The position numbers were made by a program, and so were the translations under genes. Positions 14,271 to 55,327 of a stretch of DNA of 64,000 nucleotides are shown in pieces. Source of the stretch: Plotosus lineatus (taxonomy: Eukaryota; Chordata; Actinopteri; Siluriformes; Plotosidae). Each line of letters begins with the position of its first letter. Within the stretch, counting starts at the first letter, position 1. A model generated the notes under the pieces. The model was not told the DNA's origin, searched no databases, and saw only the letters and a program-made list of their open reading frames with translations. Where the stretch lies: contig CM045731.1 in the NCBI GenBank assembly GCA_024760905.1, forward strand, positions 54,015,001 to 54,079,000, in the 5' to 3' direction.

Positions 14271-14334
14271 ATGAGGAACCCCGTCATCGGTGATGTGATG
14301 AACAAGTTTGAGGTGCTTGGGATCGTCGGAGAAG
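14271..14334 (+). CDS. cdkl5: cdkl5 coding exon 2 (start codon, kinase N-terminus)
   Basis: CDKL5 is a serine/threonine kinase of the CMGC group acting in neurons, cilia and nucleus; loss in humans causes an early epileptic encephalopathy. These 64 bases encode 21 residues plus one base, including NVMNKFE-like DVMNKFEVLGIVGE, which matches the human N-terminus (…NKFEILGVVGEG) at nearly every position. The ATG at 14271 aligns with the human start. The exon ends GAAG|GTGAGG at 14334, phase 1, the same place as human c.64 as I recall it. The downstream partner exon is at 38786, 24.45 kb away. The catalytic lysine and the rest of the kinase lie beyond the window. An orthologue or a fish duplicate are both possible. 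Confidence 0.93.
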
Positions 14335-14483
14335 GTGAGGGTTCTTCAGCTTTTGAACACCAACATTTTTCCAACTATTAAACTTAATTTTATTAAGATA
14401 AAATCATAATTTACTAAATATAATATTATTAAAATATTACATGTATATGATATACATGTAATTATGATATATTATATGATGTA

Positions 14484-14726
14484 CAGTAGGCCCTCGATAT
14501 ACGAATGAAGATAATCCGTGAGTTCTGTACCCGGAAGTAAAACCCCATGTATCATATTACATGTGCGAATGAAAATATGCTTCTTAAACACATTCTATAG
14601 GCAGCCTTACTCATTAATACAGTATTAATGTAGTAAAATATAGTAATAATTAAGAAAAAAAAATTTTGTACTGTGATATTTATTAATAAAATATATAAAG
14701 ATTATACAGCATACTTTCTATATCTA

Positions 14727-14757
<31 letters not shown>

Positions 14758-15463
14758 GCCTGTGAAGTCCCTGAAGATAATCATCTGAACTGTTGTAAAG
14801 CTGTAGTATTAAAGTCTTTTTCAATTATTATTCCAGTACAGCGACTAAATTAATGTTCAGAAGCCACGGAGCAGCTCAGCCACGCCCCTCGGCCAGAGTA
14901 GACAGTTAGTTAGAGAACACAGCCGTCAAAATCAAAGTCCCCCCCAAAACACAGTTCATAACAAAAAGAACATAAAAGAACATGAAATGTAATAAATTGG
15001 ATAAACAAAACGATAAACGTGCTACACTACAGTACATAAAATCACACACACCCAAATTCTAAACATAAATTTAGGTACTGTACTGGAATAATGATTGAAA
15101 AAGACTTTAATACTAGAGTGCTTTCAGATGATTATTTCTCTTCAGGCACTTCAGAGGAAACTGTCGTTTCTTTGGGAGAAAGTCTTATTTCTTCAGAAGA
15201 GACAGCCAATGTCATTACCTTTTCTAGCGCTTAGCCAGAGAAGAAAAGCCAGAGAAGACGCACAGCGTTTGAGTGGCATCATACAGCTTAACTGGTAATT
15301 AAAACACACTTAAAAAAAGAGGCTCACTGAAAACTTGTGTGCGAATGAGGAAAAAGGGGCATTACATCATCTCAACCAATCAGCAGGAAGGAGGACAGTT
15401 GCTTGGCAGTCCGCAAATACTCAAACCGTGAGTGCAAAACCGCGAATAGTCAAGGGCTTACTG
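14484..15463. mobile_element. TA-flanked mariner/Tigger-like MITE, family 2
   Basis: Ends CAGTAGGCCCTCGATATACG (left) and CAGTAAGCCCTTGACTATTC (right, reversed) are flanked by TA. The interior has a (CTGT)n array (14722-14758) and an inner inverted repeat: TCTGAACTGTTGTAAAG with TAAAGTCTTTTTCAATTATT at 14766-14840 reappears reversed at 15078-15148. No transposase. It is the same family as 39391-41243. Confidence 0.85.
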
Positions 15464-15474
15464 TATTTATATAT

Positions 15475-15601
15475 TTACACACTCACTCATTTGCCAACCT
15501 GCTTATTGTATCAGGGTCACTGGGAGGCTTCTGGCTATCTCAGCTCAAACCTAAAGCAAAGGAAGGCACACCCTGAACAGTGTGTTAGACCATTACAGGG
15601 C

Positions 15602-15635
<34 letters not shown>

Positions 15636-15638
15636 CTC

Positions 15639-15680
<42 letters not shown>

Positions 15681-15852
15681 CCATCCACATCTAGGTGCAA
15701 TTTAGGACATCCAGTTATCCTAATGTTGTTTTTGGAGGGGGGGGGGGGGGGGGGTGACAGGAGTGCCATGAGAAAGCCCACGCAAGCATGGGGAGAAAAT
15801 ACAAACTCCTCACAGAAACGGCGGAGCTGGGAATCAAACAAAAAATTGTAAC
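15475..15852 (-). mobile_element. SINE-B copy with CA and G arrays
   Basis: A reverse SINE-B: its tail lies at 15480-15540 and its head near 15830-15850 (GGGAATCAAAC). It is expanded by (CA)n at 15603-15677, containing a CT block, and by 18 G at 15737-15754. Confidence 0.75.
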
Positions 15853-15861
15853 AGTAAGTAC

Positions 15862-16190
15862 AAGGCTCGCACAGTGGCGTAGTGGTTAGCATATCAGTCT
15901 CATAGCAAGAAGTTTCTGGGTTCGATTCCCAGCTCGGGCATTTCTGTGTGGAGTGTTTACATATTCTCCCCATGATTGCGTGGGTGTCCTCCGCGTACTC
16001 CAGTTTTCCCCCACAGTCCAAAAATATGCACAGTAGGTTAATTAGTTGTTCCAAATCACTCCCAGGAACGCTTGTGAATGGTCATGTGAGTGTCAGCCAT
16101 ACAATGGCCCAGAGTCGGCTGAAATGGGCACCAGCCTCCCCGTGACCCAAATTAGGATTAAGCAGTTCAGAAAATGAATGACATTAATTA
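15862..16190 (+). mobile_element. SINE-B copy, nearly full length
   Basis: A-box CAGTGGCGTAGTGGTTAGCA, B-box GGGTTCGATTCCC, and a clean 3' tail AATTAGGATTAAGCAGTTCA then GAAAATGAATGAC. It is tail-distal to the reverse copy just before it, giving a head-to-head pair. Confidence 0.85.
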
Positions 16191-16545
16191 CAATATAAAT
16201 CCAGACTGTGGAAATCATTTGATTCCCTGAAAGATCAATTAATTCCATATAAATCTTGTACGTATTCATATGGAATTGACACAAGCTGTAATAAACCGCT
16301 ATAATGAATCAGCTGATTGAACTGCAGTGTATATCAGACACTTTATTCTTATTTTTATAAATGGCATCTCTTGAAGAGCTGAAATGACATTTATGTAAGT
16401 GGTATACATGCAAAATGTTGAACTCCTCTTACTGCTCATCTCCTTTTACCTTCTAATCAACCAGCATAAACAAAGCTGAAGTGGGTCATGACAAAAACAG
16501 AACACCTTCTCCACGTTAACACTTAGGTACACTCAAACCTTTTTT
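16191..16545. other. Intron 2, no recognised feature
   Basis: AT-rich. A short hairpin (AATTCCATAT / ATATGGAATT) lies at about 16242-16278. Confidence 0.5.
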
Positions 16546-16980
16546 ACCTAGTTCCCTTCACCTCGTCCTTTTCACCTCCTTTCCTCCGTCCTCTTCAACT
16601 CACCTCCTTCCCCTCACCTCCTTCTGTTTACCTCCTTCTCTTCCCCCACCTCGTTCTCCTCCTTTCCTTCATTCTCTTCACCTCACCTGGTTCCCTTAAC
16701 ACTCTTCCCTTTACATCCTTTTTTACCTTCTTTTCTTCACATCCTTCTCTTCACCTCCTTCTCTTCACTTCCTTTCCTTCACCCCAGTTCCTTCACCCTC
16801 TTCACCTCAACTTCTTCCCTTCAATATCTTCATTTAACCTCCTTCTCTTCACCCTTTTCCACTTCACCTTCTTTCCTTCACCTCCTTCCCTTCACACTCT
16901 TCCCTTTAGCTCCTTTTCCTCATCTCCTTGCTTTCTTCTTTACCTTCCTTCCTCTCACTTCCTTCCCATGACTTTTCCCT
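16546..16980. repeat. Polypyrimidine minisatellite (CCTCCTTCYCTTCA-like)
   Basis: About 435 bp are almost purely C/T with regular single A residues. Units resemble TTCACCTCCTTCCC, with lengths near 10-18 bp. It is a degenerate tandem array and a strong purine/pyrimidine strand asymmetry. Confidence 0.85.
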
Positions 16981-17100
16981 TTTTATTTTTATTTTAAATT
17001 TACTGGTTACAGGTTTATAACTGTTACACAAACACAAAAATATACAGTCATACACAGAGTGTACGAGGGATACATTTTCTCTTCCAGTCAGACAGACACA

Positions 17101-17252
17101 GATGAATGGATGGATAGATGGATGGATGGATGGATGGATGGATGAATGGTAAGATTATATTAGATTCAACCTTATTGTCATTACACATGTATAAATACAG
17201 TGTAACAAAATTCAGTTTAGCATCCAATCAGAAGTGCAGAGAGCAGCAAGTG

Positions 17253-17316
<64 letters not shown>
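17101..17316. repeat. (TGGA)n, (CT)n and (AT)n microsatellites
   Basis: (TGGA)n occupies 17101-17149, and (CT)n at 17252-17280 runs straight into (AT)n at 17281-17316. The ~100 bp between hold no recognised feature. Confidence 0.9.
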
Positions 17317-17320
<4 letters not shown>

Positions 17321-17559
17321 TATGAGCATGTACAGTTAGAAGCAGTTATGTACAGATAAGTGCATTAAAGGTGAGAATGAATAAGCATTAATTTACATAC
17401 GAGCAATATACACATGTTCTATATTACTATACCGAACAATAAAATATGCAGAGGTAGTGTTCAAATATACAGATATGGTATGAATGTAGAACAGTAGTGG
17501 AAGAATAGCACTGTGAATATACCATAACCGTAGATACAGAAATGAACATAGAGGCAGAT

Positions 17560-17705
17560 ATATTGACAGATGAACAGATGGACAAATGGATATAGAGACA
17601 AATGGGAGTACGGACAAATGAATGGATGAAAGGATAGATAGGCAGACAGAAAATTGGACACAGAGACAGATATATCGATAGATAAACAGACAGACGGCAG
17701 GATGG
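17560..17705. repeat. Degenerate GACA/GATA/GATG array
   Basis: Loose tetranucleotide repeats such as CAGATATA, GACAGATG and GATAGATAGGCAGACAG. The same type resumes at 18775-18820, so the element at 17724 landed in this array. Confidence 0.7.
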
Positions 17706-18024
17706 ACGAATGAATATACTGTACAGTGGAGCCTCGGTACTCGAACTTAATCCGTTCCAGATGGCTGTTCGGATTCCGATTCTGCTTTACCCATTACAAA
17801 TAATGTAAATGGTCTTAATCCGTTCCATCGTCTTTTGAACAGAAGTTAACAGTACCGTCACTCATACCATAGGTCCGCAAATGAAGTGAAAAAATTATTG
17901 AATACAGTACACTATGTTATGGTTTATGTTGTGAGAGACTCTTTAACTGCACTGTGTTTTTTAATTTAGTGTGTTATGGTCTCTCACAAAAGAGTTGGGC
18001 ATTGAAATGTGTGTTGAAGAGCGG

Positions 18025-18735
18025 CATGGCTGTCACCTGCGGGGTGGAGTGCTAAACAAACACACCTGATTCCATTTAATCACGGGCTATAAAGACTACC
18101 AGCACTCTTCCGGGCGCTAGAAGATTGTCCCTCTTCCCCGTGATCTCTCTGGCTCTCAGCTCCGTGCTCCACCCATTCCCGCTTTAGTTTGATTTCCGTG
18201 TTTCTCTGCATCACTAGTACAGTGACTACGATTTCCCAGTTTCATCCCCAATGCAGCTGACTGGGTTATCAAAGGTGGGCCATGTCTCTCACCGTCTATG
18301 GTGTGAGGCATGTAAAAGAACCATTGCTGACTTTCGTAAAGAGTAGGCTGCAAAGCCGTCAGCGTGTTTCTGTCCATTGCTAAAGGATTGTGTTAGGAAG
18401 GGCATCCGACGTAAAAACCTATGCCAAATCAAATGTGCGATTCATTCACTGTGGCGACCCCTGATAAAGGGAAAAAGCCAAAAGGAAATCTCTATCTCAT
18501 CTTTGAAAATGGCTGTGCTTTATTGTTCACAGAGAAGGCACTAGAGCACGGGCACTCGAGCACTAGAAACACGGAAATCAAACTAAAGCGGGAACTGGTG
18601 GAGCACGGAGCTGAGAGATCACAGGGAAGAGGGACAATCTTCTAGCACCGGAAAGAGCGCTGGTAGTCTTTATAGCCCGTGATTAAATGGAATCAGGTGT
18701 GTTTTTTTAGTACTCCACCGCGCGTGTGACAGCCA
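18025..18735. repeat. Foldback: two ~200-bp inverted copies of an LTR-like module
   Basis: The left arm (about 18025-18235) and right arm (about 18550-18735) are reverse complements at roughly 90%. Each contains a TATA-like GGGCTATAAAGAC, AAGATTGTCCCTCTTC and CGCTTTAGTTTGATTTCCGT. The same module occurs once, unduplicated, at 46880-47245. Confidence 0.8.
18241..18495 (+). mobile_element. SINE-A, 5' truncated, in the foldback loop
   Basis: It starts near CAGCTGACTGGGTTATCAAA and runs to the RTE-like end GTGGCGACCCCTGATAAAGG. The tRNA head is missing. Confidence 0.85.
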
Positions 18736-18775
18736 CACCCCTCTCCAAAGTGCATTTCAAAGTGTACCTCTTTTG

Positions 18776-19253
18776 TACACAGACAGACAAATGGAGGAAT
18801 GAAAAGATAGGCAGGTGTTATAACTGCAGTACTTTACAGCTTATGACAACAGTGCTTGTCATTCTATTTTTTAATCTTTCCTAGTTTTCACCTTTAGTGC
18901 TCATATTCACATTGTCACTAGCCATAGTATAACATAACACTCTTGCATTTGAATCACTGAGTCACTGAATCACTGACTCTTTTATCCCTGTTGAATTTTT
19001 AAAAATTGTGCGGGTATTCCTTTACCTCAAACCTTCTGGTATCAAAGGTCCTGTGGTTGTAGAAGTCATCTTCTGGTTGATATATACATGTAGAAGTGGA
19101 AGTGATATGATGAAGGGGTGTTGATTTTTTCTGGTTTAATTGTTGTGCTCGGTGACGGCTGCAGAAAAGCACAAACGAGACTCATGTAATTATCGTTGTG
19201 TGGTTGAGTAGAGGAACTCAGATGGGGTGATTTTTGACTGGTTGATGTATTGA
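18776..19253. other. Intron 2, no recognised feature
   Basis: The first ~45 bp are the resumed GACA array. The rest shows nothing nameable. Confidence 0.45.
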
Positions 19254-19258
19254 AGTGT

Positions 19259-19328
<70 letters not shown>

Positions 19329-19458
19329 CAGCACTCCTTTGTCATCATGCAGAATGATTTTTAATTATGGCCATGGGGCGCTTTCAGCACTCAAGGTGCA
19401 GGTAGATGATAAAGAAAGGGCTCACAGTGGAACCGACTCTCTGCTACAGTACTACAGG

Positions 19459-19529
<71 letters not shown>
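19254..19529. repeat. Two long (TG)n arrays
   Basis: (TG)n at 19254-19327 and 19461-19529, about 130 bp apart. Cysteine/valine-repeat frames over them are artefacts. Confidence 0.95.
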
Positions 19530-19531
<2 letters not shown>

Positions 19532-19986
19532 ATTAATCCATGTTTTGGTGGTGATTATAGCCTGCTGTGTGTTCAGCTGTGGAAATTGTGGATTTCATTC
19601 TGTTTTTGGACATTAGCCCAATTTATTAGCATTGAGACTGTCCATAAAGTATGTATGCATGGGCCAGGTCAGGAGGGGTGTGACTGATTTGCGTATATGA
19701 TGCATATGAACAGGAGAGGGGGTTGCGGCAAATTTGTATGCACGTATTATAAACAGTGGTAATAAATAAATTTTAAAATAACATTGTTTTTCCAGGTCAA
19801 AGTCAATTGTTTATTAGTGTAAGTCATTAATTAGCAACAGCTCTAGTCAGAACACAATACAAAGAATTCATTAAAGTCTATCTTAAATGTTACCTAAATA
19901 AAAGTAATGGAGTTGCCCACTTGGAGACAGTGGAGCTGTGGAACAGTGTTAAAGAATCGAATTATGAATCTATCAAGAAAAAAAAA
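19530..19986. other. Intron 2, no recognised feature
   Basis: AT-rich sequence. The last 14 bases are the target duplication of the SINE that follows. Confidence 0.45.
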
Positions 19987-20000
19987 TACAAGAATTAAAT

Positions 20001-20340
20001 CACTTCATTTTCTGTAACCACTTAATCCTAATTAGGGTCGCGGGGAGACTGGTGCCCATCCCAGCTAACTCCGGGCGAGGGCAGCGTACACCCTGGACAG
20101 CTCGCCAGGCCATCGCAGGGCGGAAACAAGCTGACGGCTTTGCAGCTAACTCTTGTCGAAAGTCAGCAATGGTTCTTTTACATGAACCTCACATCATGGA
20201 CAGTGAGAGACATGGCCGGCCTTTGTTAACCCAATTAGCTGCACTGGGTGAGATAGTGACAACCTGTTGTGAGTGGGGCCTGAACCCCCAACCTTAGGAT
20301 CAGTGATCCAGCACCTATACCACCAGGCCACCACTACCCT
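20001..20340 (-). mobile_element. Chimeric SINE: SINE-A head joined to SINE-B tail
   Basis: The 14-bp target duplication TACAAGAATTAAAT stands at 19987-20000 and 20341-20354, so the unit moved as one. In sense orientation (minus strand) it starts with the SINE-A tRNA head (about 20340 down to 20125, incl. GGATCACTGATCC-like and AAAGAACCATTGCTGACTTT). It then switches near 20123 to the SINE-B tail (GGCCTGGCGAGCTGTCCAGG ... AATTAGGATTAAGTGGTTAC). The SINE-A RTE-like 3' end is absent. Confidence 0.85.
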
Positions 20341-20354
20341 TACAAGAATTAAAT

Positions 20355-20709
20355 AATAAATCAAAACGCAAACATGCGTCTCTGGACAGTTGGCTGTCGT
20401 CCACCCCAAACTATGTCCCTGCCAGACAGTATGATTCATTATGTTTTTTCCGTGGAAGTGACTGGAACAGCGTTAACATAGACTATCGATCAACAAATGA
20501 ACAAGTAAACATTGTGATACCGAAAACAAGTTTTTTCATCTGTTTTGAAAGCACATTTCTTTAATTTATACATACGTATGCTCCAGCTGCTATCGCTAAT
20601 GCGTATTATTTGTGTACATAAGTTGGGTAGGAGTAAATTGTGCCAGGTTTTTTGCATACATACTTTACAGACGGTCCCATAGCACAAATATAAATTGGTT
20701 TTTGTTAGT
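20355..20709. other. Intron 2, no recognised feature
   Basis: No gene, RNA or named repeat. Confidence 0.5.
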
Positions 20710-20905
20710 TTTATGTGGTTCGGGTGTTTCTCTGTGGAATTTGTGTTTTCATTGTGCGTATGTGGGTTTCTTCTGAGCACGCCGGTTTCCTCCTACAGTC
20801 CGAAGACATGCAAATTAGGTTAATTGGCTGTTCCAAATTGCCCCTAGGTGTAGATGTGAGAAAGTTTGCTGTGAAGGTTGTACCCCACCCTCACCCAGTG
20901 TGGGG
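20710..20905 (+). mobile_element. SINE-B, central part
   Basis: GTTTCTCTGTGGAATTTGTG, GTGGGTTTCTTCTGAGCACG and TTCCAAATTGCCCCTAGGTG are clear. Head and tail are missing. Confidence 0.75.
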
Positions 20906-21325
20906 GTTACTATTAACATTTTCCTTTTTTTTTTAACTTTAATTCTTGAGCATTTTTTTACATTTAAAAGTGTTGTCTTTCTCTCTTTTTAAAACAGAGA
21001 GAAAAAAAAACAAATGCAGCGTGTCAAAACATGTAACATTAATTTCAAGAGGTAACAGCACAACGAGAGAATCTTCTCGAACCCGTCACACTTGTCAATG
21101 ATTGTTTTGCCAACACATGTAACCAAACCGGTCTATAAATGCGATTTTAGTTTTCTTTTTTTATTTACCTGCTCTCTTCTCGAAACAATATCATCTTTAT
21201 AGAGACATACAGTACATTCTACTTTCAGGTTATATACTAAATGCTACAGAAGCTAAATATTATTTTAAAGCATATAGGATATCTTAACTGCAGTTGTAAG
21301 AAAGTTGCTTATGTGTAATTAGCAT
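20906..21325. other. Intron 2, no recognised feature
   Basis: T-rich start, then ordinary AT-rich sequence. No supported feature. Confidence 0.5.
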
Positions 21326-21685
21326 CCCTTCATACATTTTCTGAACCGCTTAATCCTAATTGGGGTCACGGGGAGGCTGGCTCCCATCTCAGCCGACTCT
21401 GGGTGAGGGCGCAGTACACCCTGGACAGCTTACCAGGCCACTGCAGAGCCAACACTCACACAGACATTCATACTCACACCTAGGGCTGATTTGAAACAGC
21501 CAATTAATCTACTGTGTGCATGTTTTTGGATGGTGGGAGAAAACCGAAGGAGCTGGAGGAAAAACCCACACAAACACAGGGAGAACATGCATACAATACA
21601 CAGGGAAATGCCCAAAATGGGATTTGAACCCAGGGCCTTCTTGCTGTGAGGCAGGCATCCTAACCACTACGCCACTGTAGGTGGA
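21326..21685 (-). mobile_element. SINE-B copy, full length, reverse
   Basis: All parts are present on the minus strand: the head (CCTAACCACTACGCCACTGT on +), B box (GGGATTTGAACCCAG on +), core and tail (TTTCTGAACCGCTTAATCCT on +). Confidence 0.88.
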
Positions 21686-22077
21686 TCAAATGCAGTAAAT
21701 ACAAACCGGATTCCAAAAAAGTTGGCACACGATACAAATTGTGAATAAAAACTAAATGCAATGATGTGGAAGTGCCAAATTTCAATATTTTATTATGAAT
21801 AGAACATAGATGACACGGTCAAAAGTTTAAACTGAGAAAATGTATCATTTTAAGGGGAAAATATGTTGATTTTAAATTTCATGGTGTCAACAAATCTCAA
21901 AAAAAGCTGGGACAGGTAGCAATAAGAGACTGGAAAAGTCAATTGCACTTATAACAAACAGCTGGAAGACCAAGTACCACTAATGAGGTCCATTGGCAAC
22001 ATGACTGAGTATAAAAAGAGCTTCTCAGAGTGGCAGTGTCTCTCAGAAGCAAAGATGGATAGAGTATCCACCAATTA

Positions 22078-22530
22078 TTATTTTATGGATGCTTGTATAG
22101 CGCATTATTCATACAAGCATATGCTCCATGCGCATGAGAGTATTGCATAGAATATTGCGTAAACAGGAGTATCCAGAGGAAACCACACAAGCATGGGGAG
22201 AACATGGAAACTCCACACACATCCAAATACACACCAATCCTAAAGCGAGTAGTTCAGAAGGAGACAAAATCTCACAACCAATCACATGTCAAAACTTACC
22301 TTCATGGCTGAAAACTTAACTTTTTCAGCAGTACTTGGATGCATCATGCTACACACACACACACAAACCCCACACAGCACCTATCAACTGAGTTTGATTG
22401 ATGCTGAGCACCAAGCAGGAAGCAACAACTCCCAAATTTTAACGTCTTATGGTATAAAGCGGCCGGATTCAAACTCCGACCTTCCAGAGGATAAAGCGGA
22501 CGCTCTACCAACTGAGCTAAATCCCCGGTA
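22078..22530 (-). mobile_element. tRNA-headed SINE-like insertion in the Tc1 element
   Basis: On the minus strand from about 22525 down there is TTTAGCTCAGTTGGTAGAGC (a perfect A box), a B-box-like GAGTTTGAATCC and plausible D and T arms. The acceptor stem does not pair, so this is a SINE head and not a tRNA gene. The rest contains a TATAGCGCA hairpin near 22090-22120, a reversed SINE-B core (22150-22215) and a short (CA)n. It interrupts the Tc1 leader between CCACCAATT and GCCCCCAATG. I could not define a target duplication. Confidence 0.65.
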
Positions 22531-22539
22531 TAATGCCCC

Positions 22540-23560
22540 CAATGTTTCACAGAAAGATTGTGGATCAATATCAGAAAGGTGTTTCCCAGCAAAAAAATTG
22601 CAGACTTTGACGTTATCATCATCTACAGTGCATAACACCATTCAAAGATTCAGAAAATCTGGAACAATCTCCGTGCGTAACGGTCAAGGCCGAAAAACCA
22701 TACTGGATGCCCATGATCTTCAGGCCTTTAAACAGCACTGCAGCACAAACAGGAATGCTACTGTAAGGGAAATCACAGAATGGGCTCAGCAATACCTCCA
22801 GAAACCATTGTCGGTGAACACAATCCACCGTGCCATCCGACGTTGCCGGCTGAAACTCTACAGTATAAAGAAGAAGCCATTTCTAAACAGGACCCAGAAG
22901 CACAGGCGTTTTCTCTGTGCTGGAGGTCATTTAAAATGGAGTGTGGCAAAGTGGAAAACTGTTCTGTGGTCAGACGAATCACAATTCAAAGTTCTTTATG
23001 GAAAACTGGGACGCCATGTCATCTGGACTAAAGAGGACAAGGACAACCCAAGTTGTTATCAGCACTCAGTTTAGAAGCCTGCATCTATCATGGTATGGGG
23101 TTGCATGAGTGTGTGTGGCATGGGCAGCTTGCACATCTGAACATCTGAAAAGGCACCATCACTGCAGAAAGGTATGCAGTATTTGGGTTCTAGAACAACA
23201 TATACTCCCATCCAAACGTCGTCTCTTTCAGAGAAGACCTTGCATTTTTCAACATGATAATGCCAGACCACATGCAGCATTAATTGCAGCCTTATGGCTG
23301 CGTAGGAAAAGATCCGGGAATTGAAATGGCCAGCCTGCAGTCCAGATCTTTCACCTCATAGAGAACATTTGGCACATCATAAAGAGGAAGGTGCATCAAA
23401 GAAGGCTCAAGACAGTTGAACGCTTAGAGGCCTGTATTAGACAAGAATGGGACAGCATTCCTATTTTTAAACTTGAGAAACTTGTCTCCTCGGTCCCCAG
23501 ACATTTGCAGACTGTTGGAAGAAGTAGAGGGGACGCCTCACAGTGGTGAAAATGGCCTTC
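22540..23560 (+). pseudogene. Tc1-family transposase, inactivated
   Basis: A DDE transposase for cut-and-paste movement. N-terminal helix-turn-helix region TVHNTIQRFRKSGTISV, then the GRKTI linker, and the catalytic first Asp in WSDESQF (about 22970). The second Asp is in IFQHDNARPHAALIAALW (about 23245). The frame is broken by a CAG-to-TAG stop at 23072-23074 (after NPSCYQHSV) and by further frameshifts; the third acidic motif region (SPDLSP, about 23340) is out of frame with altered following residues. The upstream part of the 262-codon open frame (22286-22535) is the inserted SINE and not transposase. Confidence 0.9.
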
Positions 23561-23779
23561 TCCCAACTTTTTTGAGATTTGTTGACACCATGAAATTTAA
23601 AATCAACATAATTTTCTCTTTAAATGCTACATTTTCTCAATTTAAACATTTGACCCTGTCATCTATGTTCTATTTGGAATAAAATATTGAAATTTGGCAC
23701 TTTCACATCATTGCACTCAGTTTTTATTTACAATTTGTTTGGTGTGCAAACTTTTTTGGAATTGGATTTGTAAAAATAA

Positions 23780-24003
23780 ATGGCTCAGATGCAGTGTCTT
23801 TATATCTCGGCTCAAGTCAGTAATAGAGGTGTAGCGATGTATTAATTTTTCTTATTGTTACGTGGTACTTTCAGCAACAGATGAACATCTCAGCTTTATG
23901 TAAACAAGATGCAAACATGAGCAGGTGGTGATATTAAGGCTTTGATATGATGTGGAAACGAGTTCTTGTCAGGTGTGAGGCTGCAGCACTGTTTTAAAAT
24001 GTT
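23780..24003. other. Intron 2 spacer
   Basis: Short unrecognised spacer between the Tc1 element and a SINE-A copy. Confidence 0.5.
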
Positions 24004-24020
24004 ATTGTTTCTGTGGTAAT

Positions 24021-24362
24021 TAGAGCAGCGGTGGCCTGCTGGTAAAGGGCGCTGGATCGCTGAACCTAAGGTTGGGGGTTCCACAAGGTCGTCATTGTCT
24101 CTCTTGGGATATCAAAGTCTCTTAACTGGGATATCAAAGATCTGCTATGTCTCTCACTGTCTATGATGAGAGGTTCATGTAAAAGAACCATTGCTGACTT
24201 TCATAAAGAGGAGCTGCATAGCCGTCAGCATGTTTCTGCCCCTTGTTAAAGGGTTGTGTCAGGAAGGGCATCCAACGTAAAAACCTATGCCAAATCAAAC
24301 ATGTGAATCAGATGATTCACTGTGGTGATCCCTGAAAAAGGGAACAAGCCGAAAGGAAAAGA
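24021..24362 (+). mobile_element. SINE-A copy, full length
   Basis: Head AGCGGTGGCCTGCTGGTAAA with GGATCGCTGAACC, then ATGTAAAAGAACCATTGCTG and AGGAAGGGCATCCAACGTAA. The end is RTE-like: GATGATTCACTGTGGTGATC, then CCGAAAGGAAAAG. Target duplications ATTGTTTCTGTGGTAAT (24004-24020) and ATTGTTTGTGTGGTAAT (24363-24379) differ by one base. Confidence 0.92.
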
Positions 24363-24379
24363 ATTGTTTGTGTGGTAAT

Positions 24380-24710: not shown

Positions 24711-24711
24711 C

Positions 24712-24933: not shown

Positions 24934-25030
<97 letters not shown>

Positions 25031-26290: not shown

Positions 26291-26351
<61 letters not shown>

Positions 26352-27032: not shown

Positions 27033-27811
27033 TTGTCAATTAAAATATATCACATAACGTCAATAGCCCTCGCCTTTACCTGCAGGCTGGTTCTTCAGTG
27101 TACGACCCCTGCACTAACCATAAGTAAATCCCACAAAAGGAAAGTACCAGAAGAAAATAGAGAGTTTAATTCTGCATCGACAGATTTATTTGCCAATGGA
27201 TTAAAGGGCCAAACGTGGGGGCAGGACATTTGTGAGGCTGTTTTGAATTGTCTAAAAGCCAAAGGAATAAACACCACTTACCTGGTGTCTGTGTCTAGTG
27301 ATGGGGCACCCAGTATGAGAGCAGCACAGAAGGGCTTTGTGAATTTACTTCAAAAGTCATTGGATCGAGAGCTGATGAAGTTTCACTGCACCCTCCACCA
27401 AGAAGCACTGTGCGCTCAAACATTCCCTCTGAGTCTTAAACTCTTAGTCATAAAGGTTCCCGACCCCTGGGATAAAGATTTACGAGTGTCCAAGTTCAAA
27501 TGCCTGACAGTGGATCTTGAAGATGTTGCCTGTCAGAAGGCCATTCTCACTAAAGAGCACAAATGGAGTGATATTGATAACCTCCCAAAACCTGACAACT
27601 TGTTTTTGAAACATGGAGTACCATTCCTGACACGTATATGAACATGAAAAATTATGCAGTTGGAGTCCTGTCCATCTTTGGCTCAGCATACTTATGCGAG
27701 AATGTTTTCTCAAGCATGAACTTCATAAAGTCCAAATATCGCTCCCGCCTCACAAATGAGAGCCTACAGTCCTGTGTGAAAATCAAAGTACATCTTATAG
27801 CCCCGACATAG
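27033..27811 (+). pseudogene. hAT transposase remnant (GTF2IRD2/ZBED-like)
   Basis: A 202-codon open frame (27033-27641) carries KRKVPEENREFN (typical of the start of these transposases) and GQDICEAVLNCLKAKG. It also has VSSDGAPSMRAAQKGF with a catalytic-type Asp, and FHCTLHQEALCAQTF. After a break, 27664-27811 encodes the hAT dimerisation region, SIFGSAYLCENVFSSMNF then SKYRSRLTNESLQSCVKI. The zinc finger and much of the middle are deleted. The family is the one domesticated in GTF2IRD2, but this copy is truncated and within transposon ends, so it is a pseudogene. Confidence 0.85.
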
Positions 27812-28076: not shown

Positions 28077-29628
28077 GTATGGAAGTGTCTAGGGGAGGTA
28101 GCAGTAGATTTTCTGACAAGAATATTCAACAAGGTCTTAGAAAGTGAGCAGATGCCGGAGGAATGGAGAAGTGTGCTTGTGCCCATTTTTAAGAACAAGG
28201 GAGATGTACAGAGTTGTGGCAACTACAGAGGGATAAAGTTGATGAGCCATACAATGAAGTTATGGGAAAGAATAGTGGAAGCTAGACTAAGGGCAGAGGT
28301 CAGCATTTGTGAACAACAGTTTGGTTTCATGCCAAGAAAGAGTATCACAGATGCAGTGTTTGCTTTGAGGATGTTAATAGAGAAGTACTCTCTATTAGGA
28401 GGACATGAAGGTCGTTGGTGTAAGAGAAGAAGATGCAAAGGATAGGGTGAGATGGAGGCAGATGATTCGCTGTGGCGACCCCTGAAGGGAAAAGCCGAAA
28501 GGAAAAGAAGAAGAAGAAAGAAGAATAGAGAAGTACTGAGAAGGTCAGAAGGAGCTGCATTGTGCCTTTGTGGATCTGGAGAAAGCATATGACAGAGTGC
28601 CGAGAGAAGAACTGTGGTATTGTATGAGGAAGTCTGGAGTGGCAGAGAAGTATGTTAGAGTGGTGCAGGACATGTATAAGAGATGTAAGACAGTGGTGAG
28701 GTGTGCTGTCGGTGTGACAGAAGAGTTCAAGGTGGAGGTGGGACTGCATCAAGGGTCAGCTCTCAGCCCGTTCTTGTTTGCTATGGTGATGGACAGGTTG
28801 ACAGACGAGGTTAGACAAGAATCTCCATGGACTATGATGTTTGCAGATGTTTGACATCATGATCTGCAGTGAGAGCAGAGAACAAGTGGAGGAAAATCTA
28901 GAGAGGTGGAGGTATGGCCTGGAAAGGAGGGGAATGAAGGTTAGTCTCAGTAAGACAGAATACATGTGTGTGTGAACGACAAGGACCCAAGGGGAACGGT
29001 GAGGTTACAGGGGGCAGAGATAAAGAAGGTGGAGGATTTTAAGTACTTAGGCTCAACAATCCGGAGCAATGGAGAGTGTGGAAAAGAGGTGAAGAAGCGC
29101 GTGCAGGCAGGTTGGAATGGATGGAGAAAAGTGTCCGGTGTGATAGGAGAGTATCAGCAAGAATGAAGGGAAAAGTGTACAAGACGGTGATGAGGCCAGC
29201 GATGTTGTATGGTTTAGAGACAGTGGCCCTGGGGAAAAGACAGGAGTCAGAGTTGGAGGTAGCAGAGATGAAAATGTTGAGGTTCTCTTTGGGAGTAACG
29301 AGGATGGATAGGATCAGAAATGAGTACATCAGAGGGACAGCACATGTTAGATGTTTTGGAGACAAAGTCAGAGAGGCTAGATTGAGATGGTTTGGACATG
29401 TACAAAGGAGGGATAGTGAGTATATTGGTAGTAGGATGCTGAGGTTGGAACTACCAGGCAGAAGGCCCAGAGGAAGACCAAAGAGAAGATTTATGGATGT
29501 GGTGAAGGCGGACATGAAGGTCGTTGGAGTAAGAGTAGAAGATGCAGAGGATAGGGAGAGCTGGAGGCAGATCATTTGCTGTGGCGACCCCTGAAGGGAA
29601 CAGCCGAAAGAAAAAGAAGAAGAAGAAG
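28077..29628 (+). mobile_element. RTE-clade LINE, 5' truncated
   Basis: It starts inside the reverse transcriptase (VWKCLGE) and ends with the 3' signature GTGGCGACCCCTGAAGGGAA, then AGAAG repeats. RT motifs FVDLEKAYDRVP (as a displaced frame) and GLHQGSALSPFLFAMV are present. The FADD box is destroyed by a small insertion giving GCAGATGTTTGACATC near 28845-28860. The C-terminal region LRWFGHVQRRDSEYIG (29385-29432) is open. Several frameshifts make it inactive. Confidence 0.93.
28390..28523 (+). mobile_element. Very short RTE 3' end nested in another RTE copy
   Basis: 134 bp of the LINE's last bases (GGACATGAAGGTCGTTGGTG to AAGAAGAAG) sit within the RT region of the host copy. The 14-bp duplication AATAGAGAAGTACT flanks it at 28376-28389 and 28524-28537. 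Confidence 0.93.
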
Positions 29629-30217
29629 AACTTAAAATAATATCAAATATATCAAATTATATCAACATTAATTTCAAATAAATTAAATTCAAGCAAAATA
29701 ATTTCAAATTGATAAATTTTAATCAAATTCACTCATCAAATATCAAATACAGTATCAAATATAACCTTTAACATTCTCTATGAGGCGATCTTTCTGCTTG
29801 TAAATGGTTCCGATGGTCGACGGATGGTCACATAACATGAAGTTGAGCTGAATCACATTCCATGAAGCTGAGCCGACTCACTTTACATGAAGCTTAAAAC
29901 AGCCAATAAACGCGGCTTTGTTTAGTACTCAGCCTGCACTGATGTGAATCACCAGCAGAGCAGAGAGTTGTCTCTTTCCTGGATTTGGGTTTTCATTCAT
30001 TTTACAACTCTCTTTGCTTAACTGAGTATGCATGGTAGATTGCGCCAATCAGAGCAGATAGTTAATTCATCTCTGTGTATGAGACTTGCACCCATGCTAG
30101 TCGGCTTACGCTTCTGACCAACCATATTTGCTTCGGGTTACAAAAGTCCGCAAAACAGTATAAACACAAAGATCACAGAGACGATGTCTTAACCCAAGAG
30201 TAACACGCTGTATAACT

Positions 30218-30308
<91 letters not shown>

Positions 30309-30993
30309 AACTGAACTGGAAAGAAGGAGGGGCATGTTCAGTCTGTCGTTTGTAAGCAATGAACACAGCGTCATTGCGTCATTGCGTCATTACATCAGCG
30401 TACTACGTAGATACGTCGAAAATCTAAATTTGACTTTTTTTTGGGAAAAAAAAAACGTAACAGCGAAAAAACATAAAAACTGATGAACATAAGTCGGGGA
30501 ACATCTGTATTTTTCAGAAAAAAATTAAATATTTCAGCTGATGTGGTTTTTTTTGTATACTCAGGTGCTTCGAATGATTGCTGGCTGTGAAAGAAACCCG
30601 AAGATGTTGAGAGCACATTAAAATGGACTTGTTAAAAACCTTCATAATTTTATGTTTAATTTTTAAAGCGACAACTCAATTTTTTATTTATATTAAAGTG
30701 GGCAAGTTTTCATTTTAGTTTTGCACAAGTACGTATAGGAAGGTTTCAAATAGGCCTGCATGGCTCACTGTTTAATTTATTTAAAAGTAGGCCTACAAAT
30801 GCAGACTGCAATTCTATTTATTGTATTCCATGACTGTAACAAGTAAATTAAAAATAAATAAATAAATAAAATAAAAAAGATTAAAACTTTTAAAAATTAT
30901 GAGCACTGTTATTTTTTGCGGCTCTAGACTATTTTTCTCTTGCGGAAGAGGGGCAAAATGGCGCTTTAGATAATAAAGGTAACCAATGGTCTG

Positions 30994-31479
30994 GACAATG
31001 ATGTAAATCTGTCTGTGGGTCATCCTGTCAGTTTGATTCAAACATTTCTACACTAGGGTAAAGTCTTTCAGCCAGTGTCCACATGGTTAAGTGCTTCCTG
31101 TATGTGGTTCTGCTGAAAAAAAAGTAGCATTAAGGGAGCTTCGCTGCCACTTTCTCAGCTGGCTTTCCCCTGGAGTATGACTTTAATCAGTTTAATTAGG
31201 CCTTCGCTGCTCAAGTGCTAATGGAGTTTTAGGCTGAGCCGCCAGCATGAGAGATGTGTTTTCCACGCTGGATGAAACTGTGCGATTAAATTGAAAAGTG
31301 AAAATGTGTCTGACTCCTGGCGTGAACATGGTATGTAACCTTCATAAAAGAACATCAAAAAGAACGTCTTCAATTCCATATTGAATGAAACCTGATGCAA
31401 ATTTATTCATCAGCAAGTTATATTTACCAATACTTTAGAGATTGGTGTGTGTTATGGGCAAGAACTGTGGGATTTCATC
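30994..31479. other. Intron 2, apparently unique, conserved-looking block
   Basis: 31110-31390 is non-repetitive with homeodomain-like cores (TTTAATCAGTTTAATTAGG). It could be a conserved non-coding element. This needs comparison with other fish and cannot be proven here. Confidence 0.35.
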
Positions 31480-31640
31480 CTCACATCACTTGTGAAATGT
31501 TTTATAGGATTTTTTGCATGGGGGCTTTTATTGCATGGGTTCTCTGCGAGCACCCCAATTTCCTCCCACAGTCCGAGGACATGAGGCTACTCTAAACTGC
31601 CCAAAGATGTGCAAATGAGTGTTAATGTTTTTGTGGGATG
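31480..31640 (+). mobile_element. SINE-B fragment
   Basis: GCATGGGTTCTCTGCGAGCA and TTTCCTCCCACAGTCCGAGG mark the core. Head and tail are lost. Confidence 0.6.
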
Positions 31641-31694
31641 TGACATTCATGCCAGTTGTCACATGAAATATACACGCTGTGATGATGTCACAGA

Positions 31695-31985
31695 TGAACA
31701 GACGGATGGATGGATGGATGGATGGATGGATGGATGGATGTGTGTTGAATGGATGGATGGCTGGATAGTTGGTTGGCTAAATGGATGGATGGATGTTTGG
31801 TTGAATAAATGGAAGGATTGAGGGATGGATGTATGGATGGATGGATGGGTTGATGGTTGGTTGAATGGATGAATGGATAGATGGTTGGTTGAATTGATTA
31901 ATGGATGGATGTTTGGTTGAATAGATAAATGGATGCATGGTTCTTTGAATGGCTGGATGGTTAGATGATGGGATGAATGGATGGT
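31695..31985. repeat. (GGAT)n array with GGTTGAAT-type variants
   Basis: About 290 bp begin as pure GGAT/ATGG units and continue as a higher-order mix with TGGTTGGTTGAAT. The frames over it are repeat translation. Confidence 0.92.
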
Positions 31986-31989
31986 TGGC

Positions 31990-32690
31990 ACCTCTCCTTT
32001 CCAATATTATTTGATAACGGTGATGTAATGGATTGTGCTCGCTGGAGAGATATAGTATGTATATGACTATAATTCATTTTGCTCATGATTACTTGCATTC
32101 CCCCATGCCTGCATGTTCTTGAATCTGGAAAGCTGCTTCATTGACACTACATAATTAATTGTTGAACTTTGACTATAAAGGTAATATCCCACAAATGGAA
32201 TTTCCTTGTCCCGGGAATCAAGGCTTCTTTGTTTTGTTTGTTGATGTCCCTGTATGGTAAATTCGGTACAGCTTACAGTACCTGCCTTACACTGAGTTAA
32301 AGAAGACCATGAAAATTTTCATATATCTTCAACTAAAATGCCACCATTTGTGATCCACAGTCTATAAGATTTCCATTATTGCACTTTTAAATCAAGAGAG
32401 CTACATCCTTTCAGTCCTCTGAAATGCTGAAAGCCCTCTATTGTATACACAGTGCTTACAGACGCCCACAATTGGCCAGCATCGCTCTAATTGACAGGGG
32501 AGAGAGTAATGGTCTCCTTCTGACCTAGAGAGCATGGCCAATTATGTTCTCTTGGACTCAGAGGTTACATAAAAATCTATGCCATATCTTTAACTGCATT
32601 TCTCATGTTGCATGAGTTGCAGGGCAGATAATGAGCAAGATTTCAGACTTGCATCTGTAATTGGCAAAACTACAGTACAGATACCTTCTA
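31990..32690. other. Intron 2, apparently unique, conserved-looking block
   Basis: 32380-32690 has even base composition, no repeat signature and many homeodomain-like cores (CTCTAATTGACAG, GGCCAATTATG, CTGTAATTGGC). It is a candidate enhancer or conserved element, interrupted by the SINE-A insertion that follows. Confidence 0.4.
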
Positions 32691-33036
32691 GGGGCAGTGG
32701 TGGTCTAGTGGTATAGGGTGCTGGATCGCTGATCCAAAGGTTGGGGGTCCAAGTCCCACTCTCCACAAGGTTGTCACTGTCCCCCCCAGTGCGGCTAACT
32801 GGGTTATCAAAGGCGGGCCATGTCTCTCACTGTCAATGGTGAGAGGCATGTAAAAGAACCATTGCTGACTTTCGTAAAGAGTAGCTGCAAAGCCGTCAGC
32901 GTGTTTGTCCCTTGCTAAAAGGGTTGTGACAGGAAGGGCATCCGACGTAAAAATCTCTGCCAAATCAAACGTGCGAATCACATGATTCGCTGTGGCGACT
33001 CCCGAGTAAAAGGGAAAAAAGCCGAAAGGAAGACAG
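32691..33036 (+). mobile_element. SINE-A copy, full length with target duplication
   Basis: The 19-bp duplication ACAGTACAGATACCTTCTA stands at 32672-32690 and 33037-33055, perfect. A-box GTGGTCTAGTGGTATAGGG, B-box GGGGGTCCAAGTCCC, body and RTE-like end GATTCGCTGTGGCGACTCCC are complete. A young insertion. Confidence 0.95.
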
Positions 33037-33084
33037 ACAGTACAGATACCTTCTACAGAGTGAGGTTTTTAATTGTTGTTAGTG

Positions 33085-33900
33085 TTGTTTGTACATTTAC
33101 ATTTACAGCATTTAGCAGAAGCTCTTATCCAGAGTGGCTTACAGAAGTGCTTTAGAGTCTCTATCAGTGAATATAGTCTTGTACGTGTTTGTTTAGAACA
33201 CACACTAAGTATACCATTAGTCAAACTCAGTCAGGAAGTGTTGTGTCAGTGTGGGGATTTTTGTGTGTGTGTGTCTGGGTGTATACAACATAGTGCTAAT
33301 ATAGATACTGCCAAAAAGGTAAGTTTTCAGCCGTTGTTTGAAGATACCCAGTGATTCAACTGTCCGGACACCCAGGGGAAGTTCATTCCACCACCTTGGA
33401 GCTAGAACAGATAAGAGTTTCAGATAAAGTTTTTCCTTGTCCCTTGGTAGACGATGGCACCAGTCTAGAAGTGCTAGAGGATCTGAGAGAACGCTGTGCA
33501 GTGCGTGGTGCGATAAGTACGTTGCGTTAGAAAGGTACAGGCCATTTTTGTTTCGTACTCAAGCATTGGTGTTTTAAATCTAATGCACGCAGCTTCAAGA
33601 AGCCAATTTAGAGATCATAGTAGTGTTGCGTTGTATGACAATTTGGGAAGTTTGAAAAGAAGTCATGCAGCTGAATTCTGGATCGGCTGCAGAGGTTGAA
33701 TAGTGCTCAAAGGTAGACCTGCCAAGAGTGAGTTTCAGTAATCCACCCTTGAGACGAGGTACAGTAAACTCATTGAGATATTAATCCAGGCTTGGGGTCA
33801 CCATCTTTTGCAGATGATTTGGGTGATATCCCGGTCAAGGTCAGAGTTTATTCCAGTAAGCAGGTCAGGGTAAAGGGATCTCGAGTAGGACATCAACAAG
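33085..33900. repeat. Long non-coding teleost repeat
   Basis: It starts TTTACATTTACAGCATTTAG and CAGAAGCTCTTATCCAGAGT, then GGAAGTTCATTCCACCACCT, GTGCTAGAGGATCTGAGAG and GAATTCTGGATCGGCTGCAG. I recognise these blocks from many fish genomes as a dispersed repeat. Its class is not certain to me and no protein is encoded. Confidence 0.65.
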
Positions 33901-34080
33901 ATGCATGACTTTCAATCTGGAGATCGCAGGTTCCCAGGTTGGTGGTGCAGCCATCTGTGACTGGGAGTCTATAGAATCTGATTCAGGAGGGTGAACTCTA
34001 ACAGGAGGAAGGGTACCTCCCTGTCACTCAAAGCGAGCACCAGGCAATCATGCAAGTCCATGAACTCATTTGTATAACTG
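33901..34080 (+). mobile_element. SINE-D copy
   Basis: GATGCATGACTTTCAATCTG, GGAGATCGCAGGTTCCC (B-box-like) and GGAGGAAGGGTACCTCCCTG. The tRNA-like head matches the reverse copy near 9056-9210. Confidence 0.5.
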
Positions 34081-34284
34081 GGAATATGTTAGGACATTTC
34101 TGTGTACACTTGATTATATGAAGCACTTCTTAAGAATTAAGAGGACAGCATCAGCGGTCATAAAAGGGTAATGTTTATGCTTACACATTTACGGGTGCTA
34201 TGCACTAGGGGAAAAAAAAACATTTGAAAAGTTAACCTGTAGAATTTTTGTAACCTCAACAACTCACTGCAGCCTCCATTTCCT

Positions 34285-34420
34285 GTTTTTGGCTTACAGG
34301 AATGCAGCCCCACACAGTCTTCTTCTATTGAAACCCGTCTGGTCTATTCAGACCAGTCAGGCTATTCTCCTCTGATAGGGTGTTACCTGCAGATTGGTCA
34401 CTCACTGAATGAAACCTTTT
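34285..34420. repeat. Fragment of a widespread fish repeat
   Basis: GCTTACAGGAATGCAGCCCC, CAGTCAGGCTATTCTCCTCT and GATTGGTCACTCACTG fit a repeat I recall as common in vertebrates, especially fish. The flanks 34080-34284 and 34421-34530 show nothing recognisable. Confidence 0.45.
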
Positions 34421-35131
34421 CACTAGATATGCTGTTTCGTTTTACTAGTTTGTATTTCCTGTCAGCTCCATTTATAGTACATGACATAGTATTGTTTCTA
34501 AAATCTTTTGATTTACCCTTAAAATACTGCAGCTTTTAGTACACAATCTTCTTTTCCTTTCGACTGTTCCCGTCAGGGGTCGCCACAGCGAACCATCTGC
34601 CTCCATCTCACCCTATCCTCTGCATCTTCTTCTCTTACACCTACTGCCTTCATTTCCTCGTTCACCACATCCATTAATCTTCTCTTTGGTCTTCCTCTAG
34701 GCCTTCTGCCCGATAGTTCCAACCTCAGCATCCTACTACCAATATACTCACTATCCCTCCTTTGTACATGTCCAATCCATCTCAATCTAGCCTCTCTGAC
34801 TTCGTCTCCAAAATGTCTTACATGTGCTGTCCCTCTGATGTGCTCATTCCTGATCCTATCCATCCTTGTTACTCCCAAAGAGAACCTCACCATTTTCATC
34901 TCTGCTGCCTCCAGCTCTGCCTCCTGTCTTTTCCCCCGGGCCACTCTTTCTAAACCATACAACATCGCTGGCCTCAACACTGTCTTGTACACTTTTCCTT
35001 TCATTCTTGCAGATACCCTCCTATCACACATCACACCGGACACTTTTCTCCAACCATTCCAATCAGCCTGCACACGTTTCTTCACCTCTTTTCCACACTC
35101 TTCACTGCTCTGGATTGTTGAGCCTGAGTAC

Positions 35132-36079
35132 TTAAAATCCTCTATCTTCCTTATCTCTGCACCGTTCCTCTTGGGTCCTTGTCATTAATACAGTGTATTC
35201 TGTCTTACTGAGGCTAACCTTCATTCCCCTCCTTTCCAGGGCATACCTCCACCTCTCTAGATTTTCCTGCACTTGTTCTCTGCTCTCACTACAGATCACA
35301 ATGTCATCTGCAATCATCATACTCCATGGGGAATCTTGTCTAACCTCGTCTGTCAGCCTGTCCATCACCATAGCAAACAAGAAGGGGCTCAGAGCTGACC
35401 CTTTATGCAGTCCTACCTCCACCTTGAACTCTTCTGTCACACCGACAGCACACCTCACCACTGTTTTACATCTCTTATACATGTCCTGCACCACTTTAAC
35501 ATACTTCTCTGCCACTCCAGTCTTCCTCATGCAATACCACAGTTCCTCTCTCGGCACCCTGTCATATGCTTTCTCCAGATCCACAAAGGCACAATGCAGC
35601 TCCGTCTGACCTTCTCTGTACTTTTCTATTAACATCCTCAAGGCAAATACTGCATCTGTGGTGCTCTTTCTTGGCATGAAACCAAACTGTTGTTCACAAA
35701 TGCTGACATCTGCCCTTAGTCTAGCTTCCACTATTCTTTCCAATAACTTCATCATATGGTTTATCAATTTTATCCCTCTGTAGTTGCCAGAACTCTGCAC
35801 ATCGCCCTTGTTTTTAAAAATGGGCACCATCACACTTCTCCTCCATTCCTCCGGCATCCTCTCATTCTCTAAGACCTTGTTGAATGTTCTTGTCAGAAAA
35901 TCTACTGCTACCTCTCCTAGACACTTCCATACCTCCACCGGTATGTCATCAGGACCAACTGCCTTTCCATTCTTCATCTTCTTCAATGCCCTCCTCACTT
36001 CACCCTTACTAATCTTTGCTACTTCCTGGTCCTCAACGGTCACCTCTTCTAATCTTTTTTTCTCTCTCATTTTCCTCAT
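35132..36079 (-). pseudogene. RTE reverse transcriptase region (broken frame)
   Basis: A 315-codon open piece covers most of the RT domain: PDDIPVEVWK, SSGNYRGIKL, FGFMPRKSTTDAVF, CAFVDLEKAYDRVP, GLHKGSALSPFLFAM, and IADDIVICSES where the + strand copy has FADD. It would copy LINE RNA at nicked DNA. The C-terminal part continues in another frame at 34573-35085 (GYLGS-like region lost, then LRWIGHVQRRDSEYIG). The catalytic DD pair is intact, yet frameshifts on both sides make the copy inactive. Confidence 0.9.
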
Positions 36080-36172
36080 TTATCAGCTCTTCAATGCACT
36101 CTTTCCATCTTCCCAGCACACATCTGTCATCAGGCAATACATTTCCTCTCTGTCCTTAATCACTCTAACTTG

Positions 36173-37167
36173 CTACACGTTCTTCCCATCTCTATTTCTC
36201 TGCTGTGCCAACCTGTATAAATTATTTTCTCCCTCTTTACTTTCCAACCGAGTATACAAGTCATCATACACTCTCTGTTTGGCCTTTGACACCGCTACCT
36301 TCGCCTTACGCTGTGTCTCCCTGTACTCCTGTTTACTCTCTTCAGTCCTCTCAATGTCCCACTTCTTCTTAGCTAACCTCTTCCTTTGTACACACTTTTG
36401 CACTTCCTTATTCCACCACCAAGTCTCCTTATCTACTCTCCTTCCAGATGACACACCAAGTACTCTCCTACCTGTCTCCCTGATCACATTAGCTGTAGTT
36501 GTCCAGTCATCTGGAAGCACTTCCTGACAACCAGAGCCAGTTTCAACTCCTCCTTGAAGACAACCCGACACTCTTCCTTTTTCAGCTTCCACTACTTTGT
36601 CTTCTGCTCTGCCTTTGCCTTCTTCACCTTTCTCACCATCAGCATCATCCTGCACACCACCATCCTATGCTGTTTGGCAACACTCTCACCCAGTACTACT
36701 TTGCAGTCACTGACTTCCTTCAAATTACATCGCCTACACAAAATGTAGTATACCTGTGTTCTCCTACCTCCGCTTTTAAAAGTCACCCTATGCTCCTCTC
36801 TCTTCGGGAAGAAATTATTTACCACAGCCATTTCCATCCTTTTTGCAAAATCTACCAACATCTGTCCTTCTCTGTTCCTGTCCTGGATACCAAACCTTCC
36901 CATTACTTCCTCGTCCCCTCTGTTTCCTGCACCAACATGTCGATTGATGTCTGCTCCAATGACCACTCTTTCACCTCTGGGGGTACTCTGCATCATTTCA
37001 TCGAACTCACTCCGTAATCTCTCCTTCTCTTCTCGCTCACATCCTGCCTGTGGGGCACAAGCACTAACAACATTGAACATCACGCCTTCAATTTCTAACT
37101 TGAGACTCATCACTCTGTCTGACACTCTTTTCACTTCTAGAACATTCCTGACAAACTCCTCCTTCAA
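36173..37167 (-). pseudogene. RTE endonuclease region (broken frame)
   Basis: Two overlapping open pieces (36592-37167 and 36173-36655) correspond to the C-terminal part of the apurinic-type endonuclease and the linker. The first includes VIGADINRHVGAGN (the + copy has VIGADFNGHVG) and KQHRMVVC; the N-terminal QET segment is not in an open frame here. The second piece holds EVLPDDWTTTANVIRETG and the lysine-rich linker. Confidence 0.85.
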
Positions 37168-37542
37168 GATGACTCTTACTTCATTTCTCTTCCCAGCTCT
37201 CTACCTTTTCCTGTCATAGTTCCAACTTTCAAAGTTCTAGACTCATGCCTTTCCTCTTCTCTCTCTGCATACGGACACGCCTCCCGCCTCTCCTTCTTCG
37301 ACTTCTTCGATGTCTTTGACCAACAGTAGTCCAATTTCCACCAGCACCCTATTGGATGGCGGTCGTTGTTAACCCGGGCCTCGACCGATCCGGTATGAAA
37401 TTCTTTGTTTTGATTCGCAAATTTTATTTGGCATTGGTTTTACGCCGGATGCCCTTCCTGACACAACCCTCTGCATTTATCCGAGCTTGGGACCAGCTTG
37501 CCCCCCCCACACACACAGCTGCATTAGCTTTTAGTACACAAT

Positions 37543-38734
37543 GACATTGCTTATAATTTTATTCACAAGGTTTCAATACTTGTCAAAATACATTTCTGGT
37601 AAAATTACTATACTGTATACCACAGCAGAAGCAAAATAAAGGTGTGTACTCTAATATTTTGTTGTAACGCATTTATTTTTTATCACAGCATGTAGTCTCC
37701 ATGGCATTGTGGCTCCAGTTGTTCAGGTCGAGGCTCAGAAACATTATTGTGGTAATTAAGCAGCTGATGATTTGAATGTACTGAATGGGCAGGTTATCAA
37801 ATCCATGCACTTTTTCTTCCCTGATGGCAAAAATATCAAATGAGGACTCGAATATTGAAAGAGTGGTTCATGAAGCATGAGGAATCATTCTTACATATGC
37901 ATTGGCACCGAGGATGTGTTGAAGAAGAATTTATGGAGCTGTTTAGTTTTCTTATCGTTAATACAAGACGTCAGTGAAGGAATGAACCCAACTCATTTCG
38001 GATGGAAATAAATGGTGTAATGCTGCTTTAGTTTGTCAAAACAATGCCATGGCGATTATGTGCCTTAATCCTGATTAAAGCGGAACCAACAAAATTAGAT
38101 TTAGAATGTGGGCCTCCAGGTTTTGCCCTATATGGTTTATTGTCTAATTCAATTTTCAGGTTATCGCTGGCATTTTTAGTGCCAGCATTGATAGTATTGG
38201 ATGCAGTCTCGAGGAGCTCAGAGCACTCAAAGCTCTCTTCTCCACAGGAAGTTTTGATTTATACCTCAGATAATGCCGATAGCATCTCCCAACTCTGTCA
38301 ATACCTTCCATGCCCCATTTACACACACATGCACACTCATACACAGATTCTGATCTTATCCACGCAGTACTCGCGATCCAACATGACAAGCTTCATCAAT
38401 TATATCCATATCAATTATAACCAATGCCCACTCATATCACTCAGATTTTTGTTTTGGCTCACAGAATACTGCAAAGAACTCAGGTGGTCAGTGCCCTCAA
38501 GTGGGTCCCTAAGTGCCTTTGCACTATTTACCTGTGTGATGCATTTGCTCGCCGAAAGTGACCCCATGTAAATGAACTCATCGGCTGTTCCTCAGTGAAA
38601 AGAAAACAATCAATTGATTTGTTCACCAAACCCTTCCAAATCCTTACAGTTTATTCATTGCAGAGTTTGTGTGTTTGCTGGCATACATGATGTTTTAGAT
38701 GATGGCTGTGAACTGATACTATCTGTTTACCGTT

Positions 38735-38735
<1 letters not shown>
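37543..38735. other. End of intron 2 upstream of the microexon, mostly unique
   Basis: No transposon signature is visible for nearly 1.2 kb. 38044-38571 is open for 175 codons on the + strand, with a (ACAC/CAT)-type patch inside, but has no recognisable domain and no codon pattern that convinces me. Sequences near 38080-38200 look conserved-like (AATTAGATTTAG, TCTAATTCAATTTTCAGG). An alternative exon or splicing-control region is possible. Confidence 0.4.

Positions 38736-38738
<3 letters not shown>

Positions 38739-38765
<27 letters not shown>
38739..38765. repeat. (CT)n microsatellite in the exon 3 polypyrimidine tract
   Basis: About 13 CT units end 20 bp before the exon and are followed by CCCACCCTCCCTCCAATACAG. 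The array is therefore part of the splice acceptor signal. Confidence 0.9.
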
Positions 38766-38785
38766 CCACCCTCCCTCCAATACAG

Positions 38786-38820
38786 GAGCATATGGAGTCG
38801 TGCTCAAATGCAGACATAAG
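38786..38820 (+). CDS. cdkl5: cdkl5 microexon 3 (glycine-rich loop)
   Basis: Acceptor CCAATACAG (38777-38785) and donor AAG|GTAAGACC (38821) bound a 35-nt exon. Joined to the phase-1 end of exon 2 it completes GEG and encodes AYGVVLKCRHK, identical to human CDKL5 residues 23-33 as I recall. It supplies the ATP-clamping loop and the first valines of the kinase N-lobe. Thirty-five nt also equals the human exon (c.65-99). The next exon should begin with a residue like E34 and carry the catalytic lysine; I searched to 64000 by eye and did not find it. Skipping this exon would shift the reading frame. Confidence 0.94.
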
Positions 38821-55322: not shown

Positions 55323-55327
55323 AAGAG

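Follow-up and report, generated by a model that had tools for sequence, protein, structure and literature searches.

Do two very short stretches of coding sequence, some 24 kb apart and surrounded by repeats, make up the beginning of a single gene, and if so, of which gene? The question is raised by a 64 kb window (the whole stretch of DNA that was analysed), in which the initial annotation had read two such stretches as the 5′ exons of a teleost cdkl5. Two results support that reading: the ranking of the matches in a search of solved structures, and complete identity over 33 residues with four annotated teleost CDKL5 proteins. Judging from sequence, we put the probability at about 0.97 that the two stretches are exons 2 and 3 of cdkl5 in a teleost, the start codon lying in exon 2.

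Two short exons in matching phase

The coding part of exon 2 occupies positions 14271 to 14334 of the forward strand. It starts with the ATG at 14271, comprises 64 coding bases, which we take to be the number in human CDKL5 exon 2 as well, and is translated as MRNPVIGDVMNKFEVLGIVGEG, with its last codon split after the first base. Exon 3 (38786–38820, forward strand) is just 35 bases long; it supplies the last two bases of the split codon G|GA, thereby completing G22, and codes for AYGVVLKCRHK. When 14271–14334 and 38786–38820 are joined in phase they give the 33 residues MRNPVIGDVMNKFEVLGIVGEGAYGVVLKCRHK. Intron 2 lies between them (14335–38785, forward strand; 24,451 bases, phase 1).

The splice signals can be ranked against the rest of the window. 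The donor after 14334 is GTGAGG and that of exon 3 is GTAAGA; each agrees with the consensus at eight of nine positions, GT included, and a score of 8 or more is reached by 41 of the 7,526 GT sites on both strands. The acceptor CAG of exon 3 ends at 38785 and is preceded by 16 pyrimidines in 20 bases, a count equalled or exceeded at 130 of 3,748 YAG sites. Phase, splice signals and sequence identity are shown, and on re-reading, the bases of both exons, their positions, their phase and the splice dinucleotides proved to be as annotated initially. The splicing of exon 2 to exon 3 is what we infer from these sequence features.

Could peptides this short match by chance? The matches at exons 2 and 3 are far above that level. 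We compared the window with 100 simulated first-order Markov sequences of 64 kb each, with human peptides as queries. The exon-2 peptide of human reaches a best ungapped BLOSUM62 score of 87 in the window, versus a maximum of 34 in the simulations, and the exon-3 peptide reaches 61 versus a maximum of 40. Once both exons are masked, the best scores in the window fall to 25 and 26, respectively.

Identity and integrity of the gene

The joined peptide was then searched against proteins, extended by human residues as a carrier and scored over residues 1–40; this found 532 proteins, 120 of which are listed. All 33 residues are present in at least four of the 120 matches listed, all named CDKL5 (P0121 to P0124); these annotated orthologues, from Trichomycterus rosablanca, Silurus meridionalis, Brachyhypopomus gauderio and Electrophorus electricus, carry the same 33 residues as the window. 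One of the 120 listed matches is without the anchor NKFE and was left unscored in this count. By taxonomy look-up, Trichomycterus is a siluriform and Brachyhypopomus a gymnotiform; Silurus is a catfish (siluriform) as well, and Electrophorus is a knifefish (gymnotiform). Not all catfishes are identical over these residues, as Pangasianodon hypophthalmus shares 32 of 33 and Ictalurus furcatus 31 of 33. The peptide points to a fish within, or close to, the Siluriformes or Gymnotiformes. The gene had been described initially as hidden, which is overstated, given that many of the 120 matches listed are already annotated as CDKL5.

These matches also bear on whether the gene is intact. The visible coding sequence amounts to 99 bases only and the surroundings are repeat-rich, as might be found if this were a damaged or incomplete duplicate and the working cdkl5 lay elsewhere. 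However, the layout is preserved, with intron, donor and acceptor signals intact, the 33 residues are unchanged with respect to four relatives, and cdkl5 is described as single-copy in zebrafish in an excerpt of PMC8922025. We regard such a duplicate as extremely improbable, and a cdkl5 that is in working state as a whole is the reading that we prefer.

The search of solved structures yielded 104 different sequences with an E value no higher than 1. Among the best 60 of the 104, the joined peptide has its top match in CDKL5 (4bgq; E 2.7e-13, 50.9 bits), followed within the family by CDKL2 (28.1 bits, E 1.1e-5), CDKL3 (24.6 bits) and CDKL1 (24.1 bits), with CDKL4 not represented. The alignment with CDKL5 starts at the first residue of the peptide, whereas those with CDKL2, CDKL3 and CDKL1 start at residue 9 or 10; CDKL5 is the best CDKL match among these 60, and the match includes the residues before the shared kinase start. 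A better match elsewhere in the CDKL family was the test that the initial annotation had set for its own claim, and none is better among these 60. It is practically out of the question that the exons come from another member (CDKL1, 2, 3 or 4), a candidate we rejected on the structure-search scores: CDKL2, 3 and 1 are the next matches and have the glycine-loop motif in common, but the lead of CDKL5 exceeds 22 bits, it alone of the CDKL rows among the best 60 of 104 aligns residues 1–8, the 33/33 identity is found in proteins named CDKL5, and CDKL4 is lost in most ray-finned fish according to an excerpt of PMC12075339. A point against the reading is the Pfam kinase match of the 33 residues, which is below threshold (11.8 bits against a cut-off of 31.7; 0.15).

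For cdkl5, then, the predicted course of expression is as follows. Transcription would start at a non-coding first exon farther upstream and proceed rightwards; splicing would join exon 2 (about 14121–14334) to exon 3, with its 35 bases, across 24.45 kb of intron, and would then continue to exon 4. The joined product would form the N terminus of CDKL5, a well-known Ser/Thr kinase of the brain, together with its glycine-rich loop for ATP binding.

The leader and the neighbouring exons

Where does exon 2 begin? Its probable 5′ untranslated part spans 14121–14270 on the forward strand (150 bases), behind a putative acceptor CAG that ends at 14120. Among the CAG candidates in 13951–14275, those at 14120 and 14212 tie for the most pyrimidines, with 14 in 20 bases; the acceptor at 14120 is an ordinary one, with 489 of 3,748 YAG sites having as many pyrimidines or more. 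Two points favour 14120. The match to the leader of the Silurus model P0122 extends to the left of 14212, with 13 of 19 residues shared at 14192–14248, and exon 2 would then measure 214 bp, versus 226 bp in human. Exon 2 thus probably begins at 14121 and totals 214 bp.

The Silurus model starts 50 residues earlier than the ATG of the window. An in-frame TAA is found at 14205, upstream of the ATG at 14271, and translation should therefore start at 14271 or, failing that, at 14298, where the next ATG in frame lies. The T at −3 of the ATG at 14271 is a point against the model. Along the P0122 leader the matching frame of the window switches near 14247, and this frame change suggests untranslated DNA with an indel rather than conserved protein. 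If 14121 is indeed the first base of the exon, the TAA and the frame change lead us to reject, for this fish, an upstream protein start like that of the Silurus model.

The presumed leader (14121–14265) also hosts short upstream open frames: those opening with the ATG at 14121 or at 14139 close at the 14205 stop, and that opening with the ATG at 14194 closes at 14263. Such frames could lower translation. Exon 1 was not located by a CpG scan, in which the top 15 stretches listed all have a G+C content of 0.30 to 0.48.

On the other side of exon 3, intron 3 starts at 38821 and would run on, on the forward strand, to the window end at 64000: tblastn found neither exon 4 nor exon 5 in these remaining 25,180 bp. 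The queries were a human kinase domain with an exon 4 piece, the whole of P0121, P0122 and P0125, and the two peptides that exons 4 and 5 encode in P0121; all of them gave matches at chance level only. The best values for the two exon peptides are 0.45 and 0.60, versus 6e-06 for the exon 3 peptide of just 12 residues. The absence of exon 4 from this stretch fits a long intron 3, which probably exceeds 25 kb, with exon 4 beyond the window.

Repeats, intron length and comparison with human CDKL5

Two LINE copies lie in intron 2, at about 28077–29620 (forward strand; no match in the one frame tested) and about 34547–37500 (reverse strand; matching reverse transcriptase and, below threshold, endonuclease). 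A third, in the intron 3 region at about 53817–56840 (forward strand), matches both endonuclease and reverse transcriptase, the matches being spread over two frames. Long stretches of DNA in the three copies agree at more than 90%, e.g. 2,666 aligned bases at 93.5% between 53817–56840 and 34547–37500, and the copies are therefore probably young. Intron 2 also holds a remnant at about 22286–23405 (forward strand) that we take to be Tc1-like; its Tc3-type helix-turn-helix matches are below the Pfam cut-off. It differs from the DDE transposase frame at 52690–53511 (reverse strand), which has a DDE_3 match above the cut-off. The recognised transposon copies in intron 2 (two LINE and the Tc1-like remnant) cover about 5.6 kb of 24.45 kb, further repeats are present besides, and we infer that insertions account for the length of the intron.

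For the LINE endonuclease frame 2,662 matches were found, and 111 of the 120 listed are from the siluriform Hemibagrus guttatus (counted by eye). We set the LINE aside as a pointer to catfish, as the highest identities among the matches listed are to non-catfish proteins: 83–85% for Acanthochromis polyacanthus and 83% for Channa argus, versus 72–80% for most Hemibagrus rows.

A dispersed repeat of about 200–350 bases occurs in at least six places (18246–18488, 20124–20346, 24123–24363, 32690–33031, 51720–52066 and 57285–57499), its copies being 82–91% alike in the pairs listed. Ten open frames in the window were checked. One of them, of 202 aa at 27033–27641 (forward strand), has no Pfam match at 0.01 and presumably resembles hAT-derived zinc-finger BED proteins. 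A search against Rfam gave no family at gathering score.

A (CT)13 run at 38739–38764 (forward strand) sits inside the pyrimidine tract of exon 3 and ends 21 bases before the exon. Its length could vary and affect splicing. It is a long shot, and very unlikely, that an enlarged, repeat-rich intron 2 together with this run before the frame-shifting 35-base exon causes exon 3 inclusion, and hence the dose of Cdkl5, to differ from one individual or related fish to another.

This is a known gene in a known arrangement and nothing new in kind. The biological weight is small, cdkl5 being already annotated in many vertebrates; the example shows that a gene start of two exons across 24 kb can be picked out without tools, and it is of use in assigning the window to a fish genome.

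The peptide is identical to human CDKL5 (structure 4bgq) at 27 of 33 residues. The likeness extends to gene layout as described in PMC4912119: Table 1 prints a size of 35 bp for human exon 3, the size first annotated here, the exon 2 ATG is predicted to serve every 5′ end, the start codon lying in exon 2 in the window too, and the coordinates give a long intron 3 (53,622 bp), followed by an exon 4 of 46 bp. Two differences emerge from the figures of that paper: exon 2 is 226 bp in human compared with a probable 214 bp here, and intron 2, by the coordinates, is 3,659 bp in human compared with 24,451 bp here.
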